From a virus: 47,544 nt of DNA. The DNA lies in the IMG/VR virus record IMGVR_UViG_3300028800_000019, positions 1 through 47,544 of that record; one strand, given 5' to 3'. The notes beneath the pieces were generated by a model. The model saw nothing but the letters and a program-made list of their open reading frames with translations. It had not been told where the DNA came from and did no database searches. Shown here piece by piece: positions 7,224 through 25,851 of this stretch; positions within the stretch are counted from its first letter, which is position 1, and every line of letters starts with the position of its first letter. The translations under genes were made by a program, and so were the position numbers.

Positions 7224-7685
7224 TCACTCATCTTGCTCACGCATCTCTGCTATAGCGTCAAGTACATTGACTAGGGCTGTGACATGTATACTAGTTGGTT
7301 GTCCCTTAAGCAAGCGAGACTTGTCAATGAGGATAGCAGCACCAGTCACTAGCTGGAGATAGGTAGCATTTGCTAACTTTTCGTCAGTAATGGATGCAAG
7401 AGTCTTCTCCCTAATCGCATCCAGGATGTCCGCTTCATTAGCCTGAAACTCGCGCAACTGCTCAAGCGAACAGCTCCGGGTGTAGCGACTGAGCACTCCA
7501 CGCACAGTAGACTCATCGCATCCCACCTTATTAGCGATTGCAGACGCGCCCATAGCGGGGAAACGATCATGCAGCAAGCGGATATGCTCCGCTGCGCCGG
7601 TATGAGCACCGAAGGTGTGTTGAGCACCCAGGATCCCACCCGAATCGACACCAGTCGAATGTGTGGAGTTTTCAGGCATAAACAC
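7224..7685 (-). CDS. Terminase small subunit (probable)
   Basis: 153 residues. The centre carries a helix-turn-helix-like segment (ASAIANKVGCDESTVRGVLS). The C-terminal half (TLASITDEKLANATYLQLVTG, DKSRLLKGQPT) follows a pattern common in small-terminase-type phage proteins. It would recognise packaging sites and load the large terminase. It is the first gene of the minus-strand packaging operon and faces the divergent regulatory region. Assignment is from motif pattern and position. Confidence 0.7.
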   Translation of the reverse strand: MFMPENSTHSTGVDSGGILGAQHTFGAHTGAAEHIRLLHDRFPAMGASAIANKVGCDESTVRGVLSRYTRSCSLEQLREFQANEADILDAIREKTLASITDEKLANATYLQLVTGAAILIDKSRLLKGQPTSIHVTALVNVLDAIAEMREQDE

Positions 7686-11261: not shown

Positions 11262-11606
11262 ATGAGTGATGGAACCGCTGTAATTGATGAGAAGGCTGAG
11301 ATGGAAGCTGCGAAGACTCGCACTCCCTTGACGGCTGAGCAGAAGAAAGCTGCTGGCATTCGCCGGGAGATCACGCTGCTCCAGAAGTATCCCGGCAATG
11401 AGGCAACGATTGCTAAGTTGCAGGCTGAGGCTGATGCACTGGCTCCTGCGAGTGTGCACGCGAGTAGGGTTGACCCGATGACTGCGCTGACTCCTGAGGA
11501 GCAGCAAAAGCTCCGCACTCACTTCCAGTGCAGCAAGGCTGGTTTCCCGGCTATTGCGGCTGTTGTGAGCTATAATAAGTTGGTTGAGATCGCTAGCAAG
11601 CTCTAG
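11262..11606 (+). CDS. Unknown protein in its own regulated transcription unit
   Basis: 114 residues from ATG 11262 (AAAGGTGGACATT leader). Mostly helical and charged: PLTAEQKKAAGIRREITLLQ, then an Ala-rich region, then LTPEEQQKLRTHFQCSKAG and a hydrophobic C-terminal helix. No family recognised. It is the only gene between a near-consensus promoter with an operator-like dyad and a clear intrinsic terminator, so it is expressed alone, probably early and strongly. It lies beside the symmetric GCCGTCA array, so a DNA-binding or regulatory role is possible but unproven. Confidence 0.75.
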   Translation: MSDGTAVIDEKAEMEAAKTRTPLTAEQKKAAGIRREITLLQKYPGNEATIAKLQAEADALAPASVHASRVDPMTALTPEEQQKLRTHFQCSKAGFPAIAAVVSYNKLVEIASKL

Positions 11607-11639
11607 GCCGATCCCAAGGTTGTTCGATCCCTCCTTGAA

Positions 11640-11671
11640 GACCCCCAAGTGAACCTGCTTGGGGGTTTTTG
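11640..11671 (+). terminator. Rho-independent terminator
   Basis: ACCCCCAAG (11641-11649) pairs with CTTGGGGGT (11658-11666) around an 8-base loop and is followed by a T-run (TTTTTG counting the last paired base). It ends the single-gene unit that starts at 11194. Confidence 0.9.
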
Positions 11672-11691: not shown

Positions 11692-11904
11692 GCCGTCACT
11701 TTTGCCGTCACCCAAATGACGGCAGATAACACCATGACAATAAGCCACTTACGCGAAATGCCGTCAATTTATGCCCTCGGTATACCTAATACTGTAATTA
11801 CTATAGGGGGTGTATATACTATAGAAAAGTGACGGCATTTGGGCTATCTGGATTGTTTTGTATAGGATAGGTGCCGTCAAAGAAGTGACGGCAAGACTGA
11901 CGGC
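11692..11904. repeat. Mirror-symmetric eight-copy GCCGTCA array, candidate replication origin
   Basis: Eight exact copies of GCCGTCA (+) or TGACGGC (-) lie at 11692(+), 11704(+), 11717(-), 11760(+), 11830(-), 11873(+), 11886(-), 11898(-). Copy 1 pairs with 8, 2 with 7, 3 with 6 and 4 with 5 in reverse complement, and every pair is centred on position 11798. Spacings of 12 and 13 bp within each outer triplet are near one helical turn. The 63-bp centre (11767-11829) is AT-rich and carries an imperfect dyad (TATAC at 11781, GTATA at 11812). No gene starts here: it lies between a terminator and the 3' end of the DUF3987 gene. Iteron-type origin is the best reading. Confidence 0.75.
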
Positions 11905-13969: not shown

Positions 13970-14126
13970 GTGTGGTACTCATTCTAAGTATATACTTGGG
14001 TGTAGGTGCGTGGAGTGTAGGAAGGGTCACGCAACCTACAATCGGTCGCGTAAGCAGGACAGGGAGCATAGGGAGCTAGAGAGGTTACTAAGGAGTTTTA
14101 TCAATGAGCACGCACTACTTCGATAG
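13938..14126 (+). CDS. Small zinc-finger protein
   Basis: 62 residues; ATG 13938 or an in-frame TTG shortly after could be the start. It contains CGTHSKYILGCRCVECRKGH, a four-Cys motif seen in many tiny phage proteins, followed by a basic helix (RSRKQDREHRELERLLR). Probably nucleic-acid binding. The stop lies 20 bp inside the nuclease gene, so the two are coupled. Confidence 0.65.
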   Translation: MRGLRHLRTPKCGTHSKYILGCRCVECRKGHATYNRSRKQDREHRELERLLRSFINEHALLR

Positions 14127-15393
14127 GTCACGCACAGAGGTAGATCATCGTTGCCCACGTAGGCTCTATTGGGAGTACTACTTTGATGGCAAAGGACTCC
14201 AACCAGTTAAGCTCAACCAGCATTTGGCGTTTGGTGGGGCGGTGCATGAGGCACTTGCTCATGTACTACGCTATTGTAAGGAGTTTGATAACCTTCCAGA
14301 TATGGAACAGGTAGCTGGCACCATTAAGGTATCACAAGTCGGACTCCGTGATGAGTTCACCAAAGCTCAAGGATTCCAATCCCAAACCACCCTAGAGGAA
14401 GGCTTCGATGGTGAGATGATCCAGGTTACTGAGGATCAGACTTGGCTCATAGATCACTATTGCGATCTACTTGAAGGGTTGGTCATCGGCTGGTGTCTAG
14501 TCAGGCTCCCTCTGCTTATGCAGCAGTATAGGGTTGTGGAGGTTGAGACTGAGGAACGTCTAACACTCTTATATGATACCGTGTTTACTCATGGCTATGA
14601 TATGACAAAGTGTGATCTGGTGTTCCTCTCCCGCCCAGACGCCATCTTGGAACGTCGCACAGATGGGGCACTAGTTATCCTGTCATTCAAGACAGTCTCT
14701 CAGGTCAATCAAATGTGGCTAGAGAACTTCAAGACTGACCAACAGACTATCAGTGAAGTGCTCCCTGTCGAGTCCCGGCTAGGCCGCGAGGTAGCTGGAG
14801 TGCAGATTGAAGGACTCACCAAAGGCTCACAGTCTGTTGAGTGGCCCTATAAGTCAGGCCATAAGCACCATAGCTCCCCGCTAGTGTGGGGATATCTTAT
14901 GGAAGCTGGTGGGCTTGACCTTGAGTGGAAAGCTCAGTTTGAGTATCTAGACGAGGCTGGCAACAAGCGTAGGCTGGGTAAGGGTTGGAACAGGCAGCGG
15001 ATCAATGAGCGTTACCCAGGTGGGATTGCTGAGTGGGTGGGGTGGCTCTACCAAAAGGAGAATGATCTGCTTCGTGCTCAGTTCCCCAACCCTCCACTCA
15101 TTAGCCGGTCAGCGCATGAGCTTGAGGAATGGCAGACTCAGGTTAAGTATAGGGAGATTGAGGTTGCTAATGGGCTAGTCAAGCTAGAGGCTAACGGTCA
15201 TGCTACCGACTTCACCTATGCTCAGGAAGTCCTTGCTCAAGTCTTCCCCAAGCACACCACCGGATGTGCTTATGATGCTCAGTTTCACTCTAAGTGTCCT
15301 TGCTATGGTCTTTGCTGGGGATCACAGGGTCAAAACCCTCTTGGGTGTGGAGAGTTTAAGTATCGAGAGCCTAATCATCCTGAGCGAGAGTAG
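14104..15393 (+). CDS. PD-(D/E)XK nuclease family protein (RecB/Cas4-like)
   Basis: 429 residues. The N-terminus has the Cas4/RecB-type opening (CPRRLYWEYYFDGKGL, Cys17) and FGGAVHEALAHVL (His48). The catalytic core has RPDAIL (Asp179), then VILSFKT with Lys196; the usual acidic residue before the lysine is Ser here, so catalysis may be altered. A C-terminal Cys-rich segment (about 400-420) could, with Cys17, hold an iron-sulfur cluster as in Cas4/AddB-type nucleases. It probably acts in recombination or end processing with the downstream ATPase and DNA-binding protein. Confidence 0.8.
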   Translation: MSTHYFDRSRTEVDHRCPRRLYWEYYFDGKGLQPVKLNQHLAFGGAVHEALAHVLRYCKEFDNLPDMEQVAGTIKVSQVGLRDEFTKAQGFQSQTTLEEGFDGEMIQVTEDQTWLIDHYCDLLEGLVIGWCLVRLPLLMQQYRVVEVETEERLTLLYDTVFTHGYDMTKCDLVFLSRPDAILERRTDGALVILSFKTVSQVNQMWLENFKTDQQTISEVLPVESRLGREVAGVQIEGLTKGSQSVEWPYKSGHKHHSSPLVWGYLMEAGGLDLEWKAQFEYLDEAGNKRRLGKGWNRQRINERYPGGIAEWVGWLYQKENDLLRAQFPNPPLISRSAHELEEWQTQVKYREIEVANGLVKLEANGHATDFTYAQEVLAQVFPKHTTGCAYDAQFHSKCPCYGLCWGSQGQNPLGCGEFKYREPNHPERE

Positions 15394-20849: not shown

Positions 20850-20983
20850 TAGTACCTTGCCCACACTGTGGTAAGCCTATAGATGTCCTGGAGCTTGCAT
20901 TTGCTAATAGTCAAGCTAAGGAAAAGGTACGCGAGAAGGAGCAGCAGGAGTTTGATAAGGTTCCTATAGCTAGGGGGGGCTAG
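20846..20983 (+). CDS. Tiny zinc-knuckle protein
   Basis: 45 residues from ATG 20846 (ATGA overlap with the previous stop). The N-terminus MIVPCPHCGKPIDVLEL has one CxxC; the rest is a charged helix (KEKVREKEQQEFDKV). Its TAG overlaps the GTG start of the DNA polymerase (TAGTG), so polymerase translation is coupled to this gene. It may dimerise to bind zinc. Confidence 0.6.
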   Translation: MIVPCPHCGKPIDVLELAFANSQAKEKVREKEQQEFDKVPIARGG

Positions 20984-23640
20984 TGCCAACCAATCTTGAC
21001 CTCCTAGACATTCTCCCACAGAGCCTTGGGGTGCAGGGTGCCCACTGTGGTGGATGCGATAACAGGCAAGCAGGCATCCGTATGATCCCCCCAGATGGTA
21101 AAGGCTACTCTGGAGTGATGATTGTGGGAGATAGTGGGTGGGAGTGGGAAGCTAAGGAAGGTAGACCGTTTGCTGGCCCTGCTGGACAGTTTCTTGATAA
21201 GCATATCTTTCGTAGGCTGGGTGTGCAAAGGGATGCCTTTACCTTAACTAATACTACATGGTGCAAAGCACCGAGGTTGAATTTCTATGACTATGCAGGA
21301 GCCGAAGCCACCGCTATTATTCAACACTGTAGTCCCTATCTTGATGAACTCATACACAAAACAGCTCCTAGAGTCATCATCCCAATGGGGAACGTTGCAC
21401 TACGGCGCATCTGCAATGTCAACGGAATTAACGGACACCAATGTTACGTTCACGATAGTCATTACGGCATCCCGGTAGTCCCTACATTCCATCCTAGCTT
21501 TGTCATGCAGGACAACTTAAAATATGTCCCGACCATGCTCTTTGCTTTTCGTAAAGCATTGGAGATAGCCAAGGGTACATTTGCTAGACAGCCAGTAGAC
21601 TACTGCCTAGACCTCCCACTCCCAGAGATGGAACAGTGGATGGCTGACCTTGGCTACACACCTGACCTGCCCTTAGCAGTAGACATTGAGACTCCTGAGA
21701 CAGATAAGATCAATGAGGAGGATGCTGATGACCCTGAAAAGACCTCTTATACTATTATCAGGTGTGGCTTTAGTTTTCGTGGGGGCACTGCTGCTAGTTA
21801 TCCGTGGACAGAGCCGTACATATCGTTCACACGGAAGTTACTACGTAAAGCTCATAACGTGGTCTTTCATAATGGTGGGTTTGATCGTCCTCGTCTTGAA
21901 CGCGCCGAATGCTCAATAGTAGGCCGAGTCTATGACACCATGTGGATGTTCCACTTCCTCCAGAGTGACCTACCCAAGAGCCTTGAGTTCATAGCTCCCT
22001 TCTACACTGACCTCCCACCTTGGAAGCACCTCAGCCAAGCTGAGCCTGCTTTCTATAATGCTACTGATAATGATGCTACTATCAGGTGCTTCTATGAGAT
22101 GAGGGCATGGCTAGTTAAGCAGGGTAGATGGGAAAGGTTTGAGAGACATTGTGTGGATGCTGGAGCGATCCTTGGGGAGATGAGCAAGGCTGGCGTACTG
22201 GTGGATGTAGAGGCTCGTAGCACACTACAGGATGGGTTGAGAGCTGAGATAGCTACGCTTGATACTAGTATCCAAGCTGCTATCCCTCGTGAGTTGTTAC
22301 CAATCAAGGAACTCAAAACTGAACGAACTCTAAAGGAGCTACCTGATGATGAGCGAGCAGATTGGGAACCTATCGATGTCCGATGCGAGTGCAAGCGAAC
22401 ACGAAAAGCTACTGGCCGTTGTCTCCTTTGCGATGGACTTGGGACTGTCACTCACTATAGGAAGCTACTGCCTTTTAATTGGAATTCCACTGACCAAGCC
22501 CAAGACCTCGCACGCCACTATGGATTTACTATCCCAAAGAAACGTGGAGAGGATAGAGAAGCGTTAGAGAGTAAGACGCTGAGGGCGTTTGGCAAGAAGA
22601 AAAAGGTGTTCCTTGATATATGGAATGCGCGTAAACGTTACAAGCTCATCAGTACATATGACTGGGACTTGGATGACACTGGAAGAGTACATTCTAAGTT
22701 TGGCTTCCATCCGAGTACTTGGCGTAAATCCTCCAGAGAGCCTAATCTACAAAACATCCCTAAGAGGAATGAGCTTGCAGCCGCCTTCAGGAGGACTCTT
22801 ATCGCATCGCCGGGACACGTCCTCATCGAGGCCGACTCAGCCGCCATCGAAGCAGTCTTAGTAGGCTACTGTGCTCAATCACCCCGCTACATCCGAGCTT
22901 GCAAGGCGGGTATCCACGACATCTTCATGTCCCATGTCAGGGCAGCTCGTGAGGGGGGTAGGGGCATTGATATAGGCTTAGGTGACAAGGAACTCATAGC
23001 AGCTTGTAAGGAAGCTAAGCGTGAAGATGCCTCCCGGCCTGTGTTGGAGCAGATCAGGGATGCTTGTAAGAGGGTGATTCATGGTACTAACTATGGACTC
23101 ACTCCCTATGGGATGTTTGATGAGTACCCTGATGAGTTCGCCACACAGAAGGTTGCAACTGAGCTACAGGAAATGTACCTTGGGTTGTTCCCTGAGATCA
23201 AGTCATGGATGAGGAAGACTAGGGAGCTAGCCGACCGTCAGACATTCCTTGATAATCATTATCAGTATAGACATTACTTCTATGCTGTTACTAAGTGGAA
23301 TAGCAAGTATCAAAGGTTTGATTTGGGCAATGATGCTAAGCGGTGCATAGCATTCCTTCCGCAGAGTGATGCCAGTGCGATACAGACTGAAGACCTCCTG
23401 CTGCTGGCTGACAACCAGTTCATTCGCCCAATGCTCAGGCTCATTATCCACGACAGTCACGTACTTGAGTGTCCACTTGATATGATTGACTACACCTGTG
23501 CCGCACTTAACTATACCATGTCGCGTAAGCGCCCAGAGCTAGGTGGACTTGAGATTGGGGTGGAGATTAAGTATGGGCCTAATCTATGTGACACAACACT
23601 GTGGCAACCGAGACTAGCGGCCTCTAGTCCACTTACGTAA
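20983..23640 (+). CDS. UDG-like domain fused to family A DNA polymerase
   Basis: 885 residues, GTG start. Residues 1-200 look like a family 4/5 uracil-DNA glycosylase: VGDSGWEWE (48-56), PFAGPAGQFL, four Cys (22, 25, 94, 116) spaced for a 4Fe-4S cluster, and a HPS motif at 170-172. Residues 230-380 form a 3'-5' exonuclease (DIE at 234-236, HNGGFD at 296-301, YDTMW, NATDND). The polymerase follows, with a CxC/CxxC insert (468-483), motif A EADSA (D618), motif B KRVIHGTNYG (696-705) and motif C HDS (D824; the usual Glu after Asp is Ser). It should be the replicative enzyme and might sense or reject uracil ahead of synthesis. Confidence 0.92.
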   Translation: MPTNLDLLDILPQSLGVQGAHCGGCDNRQAGIRMIPPDGKGYSGVMIVGDSGWEWEAKEGRPFAGPAGQFLDKHIFRRLGVQRDAFTLTNTTWCKAPRLNFYDYAGAEATAIIQHCSPYLDELIHKTAPRVIIPMGNVALRRICNVNGINGHQCYVHDSHYGIPVVPTFHPSFVMQDNLKYVPTMLFAFRKALEIAKGTFARQPVDYCLDLPLPEMEQWMADLGYTPDLPLAVDIETPETDKINEEDADDPEKTSYTIIRCGFSFRGGTAASYPWTEPYISFTRKLLRKAHNVVFHNGGFDRPRLERAECSIVGRVYDTMWMFHFLQSDLPKSLEFIAPFYTDLPPWKHLSQAEPAFYNATDNDATIRCFYEMRAWLVKQGRWERFERHCVDAGAILGEMSKAGVLVDVEARSTLQDGLRAEIATLDTSIQAAIPRELLPIKELKTERTLKELPDDERADWEPIDVRCECKRTRKATGRCLLCDGLGTVTHYRKLLPFNWNSTDQAQDLARHYGFTIPKKRGEDREALESKTLRAFGKKKKVFLDIWNARKRYKLISTYDWDLDDTGRVHSKFGFHPSTWRKSSREPNLQNIPKRNELAAAFRRTLIASPGHVLIEADSAAIEAVLVGYCAQSPRYIRACKAGIHDIFMSHVRAAREGGRGIDIGLGDKELIAACKEAKREDASRPVLEQIRDACKRVIHGTNYGLTPYGMFDEYPDEFATQKVATELQEMYLGLFPEIKSWMRKTRELADRQTFLDNHYQYRHYFYAVTKWNSKYQRFDLGNDAKRCIAFLPQSDASAIQTEDLLLLADNQFIRPMLRLIIHDSHVLECPLDMIDYTCAALNYTMSRKRPELGGLEIGVEIKYGPNLCDTTLWQPRLAASSPLT

Positions 23641-25096: not shown

Positions 25097-25309
25097 ATGT
25101 CACAGTTATTCGGTAGTGAAGGAATGTCTGCTGAGTGTGCTTACTGGAGAAATGCTGGTAGAGATGGTGACTGCTTTGAGTGTGGGGTGATTATTGAGAC
25201 AGGTGAGAGGATTGTGTGGGATGAGCGTGAGGAGCGTACTTGGTGCGCTGCCTGCGGTGAGGAGATCGCCGGGTATGCTGATCCGAATGGGGATGAGGAT
25301 AGAGCATGA
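25097..25309 (+). CDS. Small zinc-ribbon protein
   Basis: 70 residues from ATG 25097; ATG 25124 is also possible. Contains DGDCFECGVIIETGERI and RTWCAACGEEIAG, two CxxC knuckles that form a zinc ribbon. Acidic. The end overlaps the methyltransferase-like gene by 4 bp. A regulator or partner of that enzyme is conceivable. Confidence 0.65.
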   Translation: MSQLFGSEGMSAECAYWRNAGRDGDCFECGVIIETGERIVWDEREERTWCAACGEEIAGYADPNGDEDRA

Positions 25310-25851
25310 GAGTTCTTATTGCTTGCGAGTTCAGCGGGATAGTGCGGAATGCCTTTATTGCGCGGGGTCACGACGCAGTCTCTTGCGATCTACTCCCCAC
25401 CGAGCGCCCTGGGCCACACATTCAAGGTGATGTGCTTGAGCACTTAGGGGGCGTATGGGACTTACTGATCGCCCATCCACCCTGTACCTACCTAGCTGTG
25501 AGCGGTGCTCGTTGGTGGAAGGATCGGCAGAAGGAGCAAGCCGAAGCTCTAGACTTCATCAAACAGCTTTTGAATTGCACTATTGAGAAGGTTGCACTGG
25601 AAAACCCCATCGGGAAAATTGGTACTTACTTCCGCCCCGCGGATCAGATCATTCAACCGTGGATGTTTGGTCATGGCGAGACTAAAGCTACCTGCCTGTG
25701 GCTCAAGGGACTACCTAAGCTGGTTCCTACAAATGTGGTGTCGGGCCGGGTGCCGCGAGTGCATCATGCTTCACCTGGGCCGAATCGCTGGAAAGAGCGT
25801 AGCAGGACGCTGCCGGGGATTGCGGCGGCGATGGCTGAGCAATGGGGCTGA
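25306..25851 (+). CDS. C5-cytosine methyltransferase-like protein
   Basis: 181 residues, short for a C5 methyltransferase. The start RVLIACEFSGIVRNAFIARG resembles the SAM-binding motif I, HPPCTYL (57-63) carries the Pro-Cys pair of motif IV, and ALENPIGK (98-105) corresponds to the ENV/ENP motif. A target-recognition domain is minimal. Many phages carry such compact proteins, annotated as DNA methyltransferases, that could protect viral DNA. It is the last gene of the plus-strand arm. Confidence 0.7.
   Translation: MRVLIACEFSGIVRNAFIARGHDAVSCDLLPTERPGPHIQGDVLEHLGGVWDLLIAHPPCTYLAVSGARWWKDRQKEQAEALDFIKQLLNCTIEKVALENPIGKIGTYFRPADQIIQPWMFGHGETKATCLWLKGLPKLVPTNVVSGRVPRVHHASPGPNRWKERSRTLPGIAAAMAEQWG

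Follow-up and report, generated by a model that had tools for sequence, protein, structure and literature searches.

Eight copies of the word GCCGTCA at positions 11692-11904 of a viral genome probably make up a phage replication origin, which appears to form one cassette with the neighbouring DUF3987 ATPase gene; the product of that gene would be loaded onto the sites head-to-head as helicase/initiator. We put the probability of this reading at about 75%. A bidirectional iteron-type origin was among the options listed in the first-pass annotation of this DNA, and it appears well supported by comparison of related phages: the layout of the sites is kept in a relative, and the array evidently travels with the ATPase gene.

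The mirrored array and its surroundings

The window (the whole stretch of DNA that was analysed) is one entire virus record of 47,544 bases. Portal and terminase genes lie at its left end and the major head protein gene at its right end, all on the same strand, and this gene order suggests a nearly whole, circularly permuted genome. Two genes converge on the array with their 3′ ends, one for a 114-aa protein (+) and one for the DUF3987 ATPase (-), as expected from the earlier statement that no gene starts there. The array is crossed by short overlapping open reading frames alone, and an Rfam search of the array gave no match. By inspection, a stem followed by a T-run probably separates the 114-aa gene from the array as a terminator. 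In the product of the reading frame at 20983-23640, a uracil-DNA-glycosylase-like domain (PF03167) at the N-terminus is joined to a DNA polymerase A (PF00476); this protein is kept in relatives L005 and L021. The frame at 7224-7685 directly precedes the large terminase gene and probably encodes a small terminase-like protein, for which helix-turn-helix matches were weak. That at 25306-25851 closes the replication gene block and encodes a phage DNA methyltransferase (PHROG 757).

Table 1. Features of the array and of the genes beside it (positions in the window)
Feature	Positions	Strand	Remarks
114-aa protein	11262..11606	+	function unknown; left flank of cassette, conserved in all relatives
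Stem then T-run	11638..11669	+	probable terminator, by inspection; not flagged by consensus scan
Site 1	11692..11698	+	GCCGTCA
Site 2	11704..11710	+	GCCGTCA; 12 bp from site 1
Site 3	11717..11723	-	GCCGTCA on opposite strand; 13 bp from site 2
Site 4	11760..11766	+	inner site on the left; 43 bp from site 3
Core	11767..11829		33% GC; proposed unwinding region
Site 5	11830..11836	-	mirrors site 4
Site 6	11873..11879	+	mirrors site 3
Site 7	11886..11892	-	mirrors site 2
Site 8	11898..11904	-	mirrors site 1; 10 bp from stop codon of ATPase gene
DUF3987 ATPase, 386 aa	11915..13075	-	proposed origin-binding helicase/initiator
Exonuclease-like protein	14104..15393	+	weak PHROG match; conserved right flank

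The eight sites form four reverse-complement pairs about one common centre, 11798.0, with strands + + - + in the left half and - + - - in the right half. All coordinates and strands given in the first-pass annotation were borne out, and so were the matching 12- and 13-bp spacings of its outer triplets; the start-to-start spacings across the window array are 12, 13, 43, 70, 43, 13 and 12 bp. The extended word TGCCGTCA is present at seven of the eight sites, and sites 2 and 3 together form a 22-bp inverted pair, TGCCGTCA-N6-TGACGGCA. GCCGTCA occurs 13 times in the entire record (5.2 expected); 8 of these 13 copies fall inside the 213 bp of the array, and no further cluster was found elsewhere in the 47,544 bases.

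Symmetry was scored around every possible centre of the record from complementary runs 5 or more bases long. The score was 36 at centre 11798.0, and the runner-up centre in the 47.5-kb record scored 18. The intergenic stretch was dinucleotide-shuffled 200 times; the best shuffle scored 15, and none reached 36. When eight sites were placed at random, the inner pairs were all mirrored in 0 of ~200,000 trials, counting those trials whose outer pair was correctly oriented. These findings agree with the earlier judgement that the symmetry is improbable by chance, and selection is clearly acting on the eight sites. Outside the sites, the arms match each other at 22 of 47 positions vs. 29% expected (P = 0.007). 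The arms are no clean recent inverted duplication; this modest excess of pairing possibly reflects a remnant inverted duplication or extended flanks of the sites.

The core has 33% GC, vs. 52% for the genome, and ranks within the top 73 of 47,482 63-mers by AT content; the AT-rich region expected of a replication origin is thus present. It contains CGGTATACCTAATA, which was also found in relative L004. The core had been described as AT-rich and as itself an imperfect dyad. Its AT-richness was confirmed; the dyad is less pronounced than described: only 6 of 31 positions pair about 11798, and the core palindrome GTAATTAC is a weak dyad (16 of 31 paired) centred half a base off, at 11797.5. Cumulative GC skew, proposed earlier as a check, gave the origin reading no support: skew was positive to the left and right of the array, and no turning point was found at it. 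GC skew in this genome may mainly follow gene direction.

ATPase genes and repeat arrays in related phages

Among the relatives, only L004 (IMGVR_UViG_3300041809_000336) carries the same ATPase class as the window. Its helicase-like ATPase is 83% identical to that of the window, and its array lies directly after the ATPase gene, as in the window. The L004 word is GTCGTCA at seven sites (extended form, TGTCGTCA); the remaining one sits where the layout predicts and has a degenerate sequence (TGACTGC). In the same orientation, the L004 spacings are 12, 12, 43, 60, 44, 12 and 11 bp. Every spacing is therefore within 1 bp of its window counterpart except the core, which is 10 bp (~one helical turn) shorter in L004. 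Spacing and orientation of the predicted sites are kept between the two phages, and the word is altered in concert at all intact sites. Such a pattern would be predicted if the sites all bind one protein and its specificity has shifted. The first-pass annotation had asked whether related phages keep the site positions while the spacers vary; L004 retains the layout, and even the recognition word has changed along with the spacers. Identity between the window and L004 ATPases is 92-96% for residues 1-200, 74% for residues 201-294, and 68% for residues 295-386. The diverged C-terminus is consistent with a DNA-reading part that tracks the changed word.

Three other relatives share genes with the window and differ at the ATPase locus. 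The exonuclease-like protein has 69-72% identity in L005, L019 and L021, the polymerase 68-73% in L005 and L021, and the terminase 75% in L019. The place of the DUF3987 gene is taken in all three by non-homologous ATPases: an AAA_25 protein in L005 (E = 5e-21), for which a search for further relatives returned L005 alone, and members of a third P-loop family in L019 and L021, which are 81% identical to each other. The three ATPase classes are mutually exclusive in the available records, some of which are fragments, and no DUF3987 gene was found in L005, L019 or L021.

Each of these three phages has inverted repeats of its own beside the 3′ end of the ATPase gene. The three copies of the L005 repeat, TCACNNGTGA, are the only ones in 22.6 kb, where 0.35 would be expected. 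The repeats of L019 and L021 are TCATCTACC/GGTAGATGA, in arrays (L019, 8431-8526; L021, 417-522) with the conserved core ATAAGTCCTTTGTTTTCAGTT. The repeats lie directly 3′ of the gene for the putative P-loop helicase in the window, L004 and L005, and overlap the 3′ end of the gene in L019 and L021. The stretches between the innermost repeats of L005, L019 and L021 have 32-41% GC. These arrays are simpler than that of the window: the observed symmetry was reached by 3 of 200 shuffles for L019, 30 of 200 for L021, and 7 of 200 for L005. Taken alone, their symmetry is only suggestive.

Across the five phages, three ATPase classes occur with three classes of repeat word. Because a change of ATPase class goes with a change of word and leaves the flanking genes in place, we regard array and ATPase gene as one exchangeable cassette. 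Two neighbouring proteins had been named as candidate binders of the array. The DUF3987 ATPase appears to be a good candidate, since ATPase class follows the repeat word. The 114-residue protein is not: it is 46-48% identical to its counterparts in the relatives (L004, 47%), with 53% over 45 residues in L021, so that it is about equally diverged in phages whose repeat words are unrelated, and its divergence does not follow the word. A phage protein search with this protein gave no match.

Two further observations were made on these arrays. The outer distance differs by ~10 bp between L019 and L021, like that between the window and L004. In L005, inverted copies of AAATCACTGGTGA (866-930 and 943-952) surround an AT-rich stretch beside the RepA-like ATPase, and may represent a second candidate type of origin.

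The ATPase, a loading model and known origins

The window ATPase matched DUF3987 (PF13148) with E = 4e-7 and 30 bits (Pfam gathering cut-off, 27), and the L004 ATPase with E = 1e-8 and 35.2 bits. Pfam returned DUF3987 alone for the window protein, which also had weak matches to PHROG helicases/primases. No match was found among PDB sequences or in a protein search of phages and plasmids, and a scan of bacterial and archaeal genomes revealed no relative. By inspection, the Walker B-like motif is VVLAIDEL and the Walker A motif is degenerate (GESADTKKT), which makes ATPase activity uncertain. Among the convincing genes elsewhere in the window, a canonical Walker A motif was found in the terminase alone, in a scan that divergent helicases could escape. 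The DUF3987 ATPase is the sole candidate replicative helicase found in the window. DUF3987 domains take the place of MCM, RepA and DnaB domains in primases of mobile elements and were for that reason predicted to be helicases; C-terminal winged helices were proposed to read the origin (Kazlauskas et al., PMC5862659). In two low-confidence models (pLDDT 35 and 48), built for the full ATPase and for its C-terminus, residues 305-370 of the window ATPase follow a helix-helix-helix-strand-strand order that is winged-helix-like. A fold search with the models gave no significant match, and many of the weak matches were winged-helix proteins. We take this as only a hint of a winged helix at the C-terminus.

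We infer origin activity, binding, and the steps from binding to unwinding as follows. The ATPase would serve as helicase/initiator of the phage, and its winged-helix-like C-terminal domain would bind each TGCCGTCA. The four sites per side would position one oligomer on each side, face to face across the AT-rich core, and ATP-driven remodelling would lead to melting of the core. The two helicases would then depart in opposite directions, and the phage's own UDG-PolA polymerase would replicate the DNA both ways.

At the SV40 and papillomavirus origins, large T and E1 assemble as head-to-head helicases on short inverted sites close to an AT-rich region. The proposed model shares this head-to-head assembly; however, those proteins belong to other families, their DNA-binding domain is N-terminal, and their origins have fewer sites than the array described here. 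The lambda O-type origin and the P4 alpha/crr system share with the model iterons recognised by a phage initiator. Lambda O iterons are part of the initiator gene itself and show no mirror order about the AT-rich region, and P4 alpha is a primase-helicase fusion.

The closest parallels were found in the mobile-element proteins SaPI Rep and SCCmec Cch2, self-loading initiator helicases. Each uses its C-terminal domain to bind iterons that directly follow its own gene, and SaPI Rep apparently binds as two hexamers (PMC7581432). Like them, the present locus combines a helicase-like ATPase of a mobile element with short repeats directly downstream of its gene, a proposed C-terminal DNA-reading domain, and an ori type coupled to the helicase. 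It differs in that the helicase is DUF3987 rather than DUF927 or Primase_Cterm/D5 and that the locus lies within a tailed-phage genome. The eight sites are exactly mirrored, whereas Cch2 binding needs a 23-bp direct-repeat region and not its inverted repeats (PMC7581432). Because no homology between the helicases was found, we say that the locus would work like a SaPI Rep/Cch2 origin, not that it is one.

The literature was searched, and no cognate origin was found for the DUF3987 family. An array 3′ of the DUF3987 gene is not general to the family, since described phages P318 and AAS23 leave no room for one there. The odds are about even, in our estimate, that two further aspects hold together: a DUF3987 origin with a self-loading ATPase on an exactly mirrored eight-site platform, and one phage lineage that swaps three non-homologous ATPase-origin pairs. 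DUF3987 proteins are encoded by phages, satellites and mobile elements, and their helicase role is a prediction. The locus supplies a test substrate: a defined word, a defined candidate partner, and two natural variants (GCC and GTC) whose ATPases diverge chiefly in their C-terminal halves. With its exact mirror order, the array would reveal the geometry of loading two helicases head-to-head. The non-homologous ATPases and repeats swapped at one locus would be a clear case of initiator-origin modules exchanged as a unit.

Alternative readings and wider searches

Short repeated words are typical of operators, and the array might be bound by a repressor or activator or mark a transcription boundary. 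This is very unlikely: the array lies between two convergent gene ends, the word is clustered nowhere else in the genome, and the sole promoter-like match at the array is at chance level. Symmetric arms around a core are typical also of recombination and packaging sites (attP with arm sites, resolution, telomere-resolution, pac/cos). No integrase, resolvase or protelomerase was recognised among the proteins scanned, which included part of the small ORFs. The terminase genes are ~4-7 kb from the array, and inheritance of the array follows the ATPase rather than the terminase; L019 has a 75% identical terminase and a different array. A role in recombination or packaging is accordingly highly improbable. 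Short sites arrayed at a single locus would also suit a role in partition, or as a centromere-like element to which a segregation protein binds. However, no ParA/ParB-like protein was recognised among the proteins scanned, there is no sign of plasmid maintenance, and the gene that adjoins the array encodes a helicase-like ATPase; we give this reading the slightest chance. Neither a partition-like site nor a replication terminus, both suggested in the first-pass annotation, gained supporting evidence.

A different kind of origin was also considered, in which the arms form a long imperfect hairpin recognised by a replication protein, as suggested for pRN1. In that plasmid, a 100-bp stem-loop 3′ of the rep gene was suggested as a structure-based origin (PMC4234260). 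The array likewise is an inverted element 3′ of a putative replication-protein gene, with letters poorly conserved and layout conserved, and its single strand folds far better than shuffles (window, z -6.7; L004, z -9.1). Any mirrored sites would yield a good folding energy, however, and the spacers pair modestly (22/47). The pRN1 element (~100 bp) relies on stem-loop integrity and belongs to a primase-SF3-WH fusion (PMC4234260), whereas the present array has multiple copies of one word. Sites within one arm are direct and inverted copies of each other, which a hairpin does not need. Conservation of pairing rather than of words was not observed: the words are repeated in each arm and have changed in concert between the window and L004. 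Because one word repeats within each arm, protein-binding sites are favoured, and we consider the hairpin unlikely.

A search for DNA similarity to annotated phages gave no match for the array or for a 20-kb stretch. A scan of viral contigs for the 22-bp inverted pair returned 11 other contigs, none with a same-word array. A degenerate triplet scan returned 25 contigs, one of which was L004. Several of the others carried GTGACGTCAC-like repeats within reading frames; the window layout was absent from them. Clusters of GTGACGTCAC-like repeats ~10-12 bp apart were seen in unrelated phage contigs (L023, L024, L028, L029, L031, L033, L036, L039, L044, L045 and L046), mostly within a 230-420-aa open reading frame. 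Two such frames matched the phage families DUF1376 and Phg_2220_C. These clusters resemble lambda O-type origins, which lie within the initiator gene.
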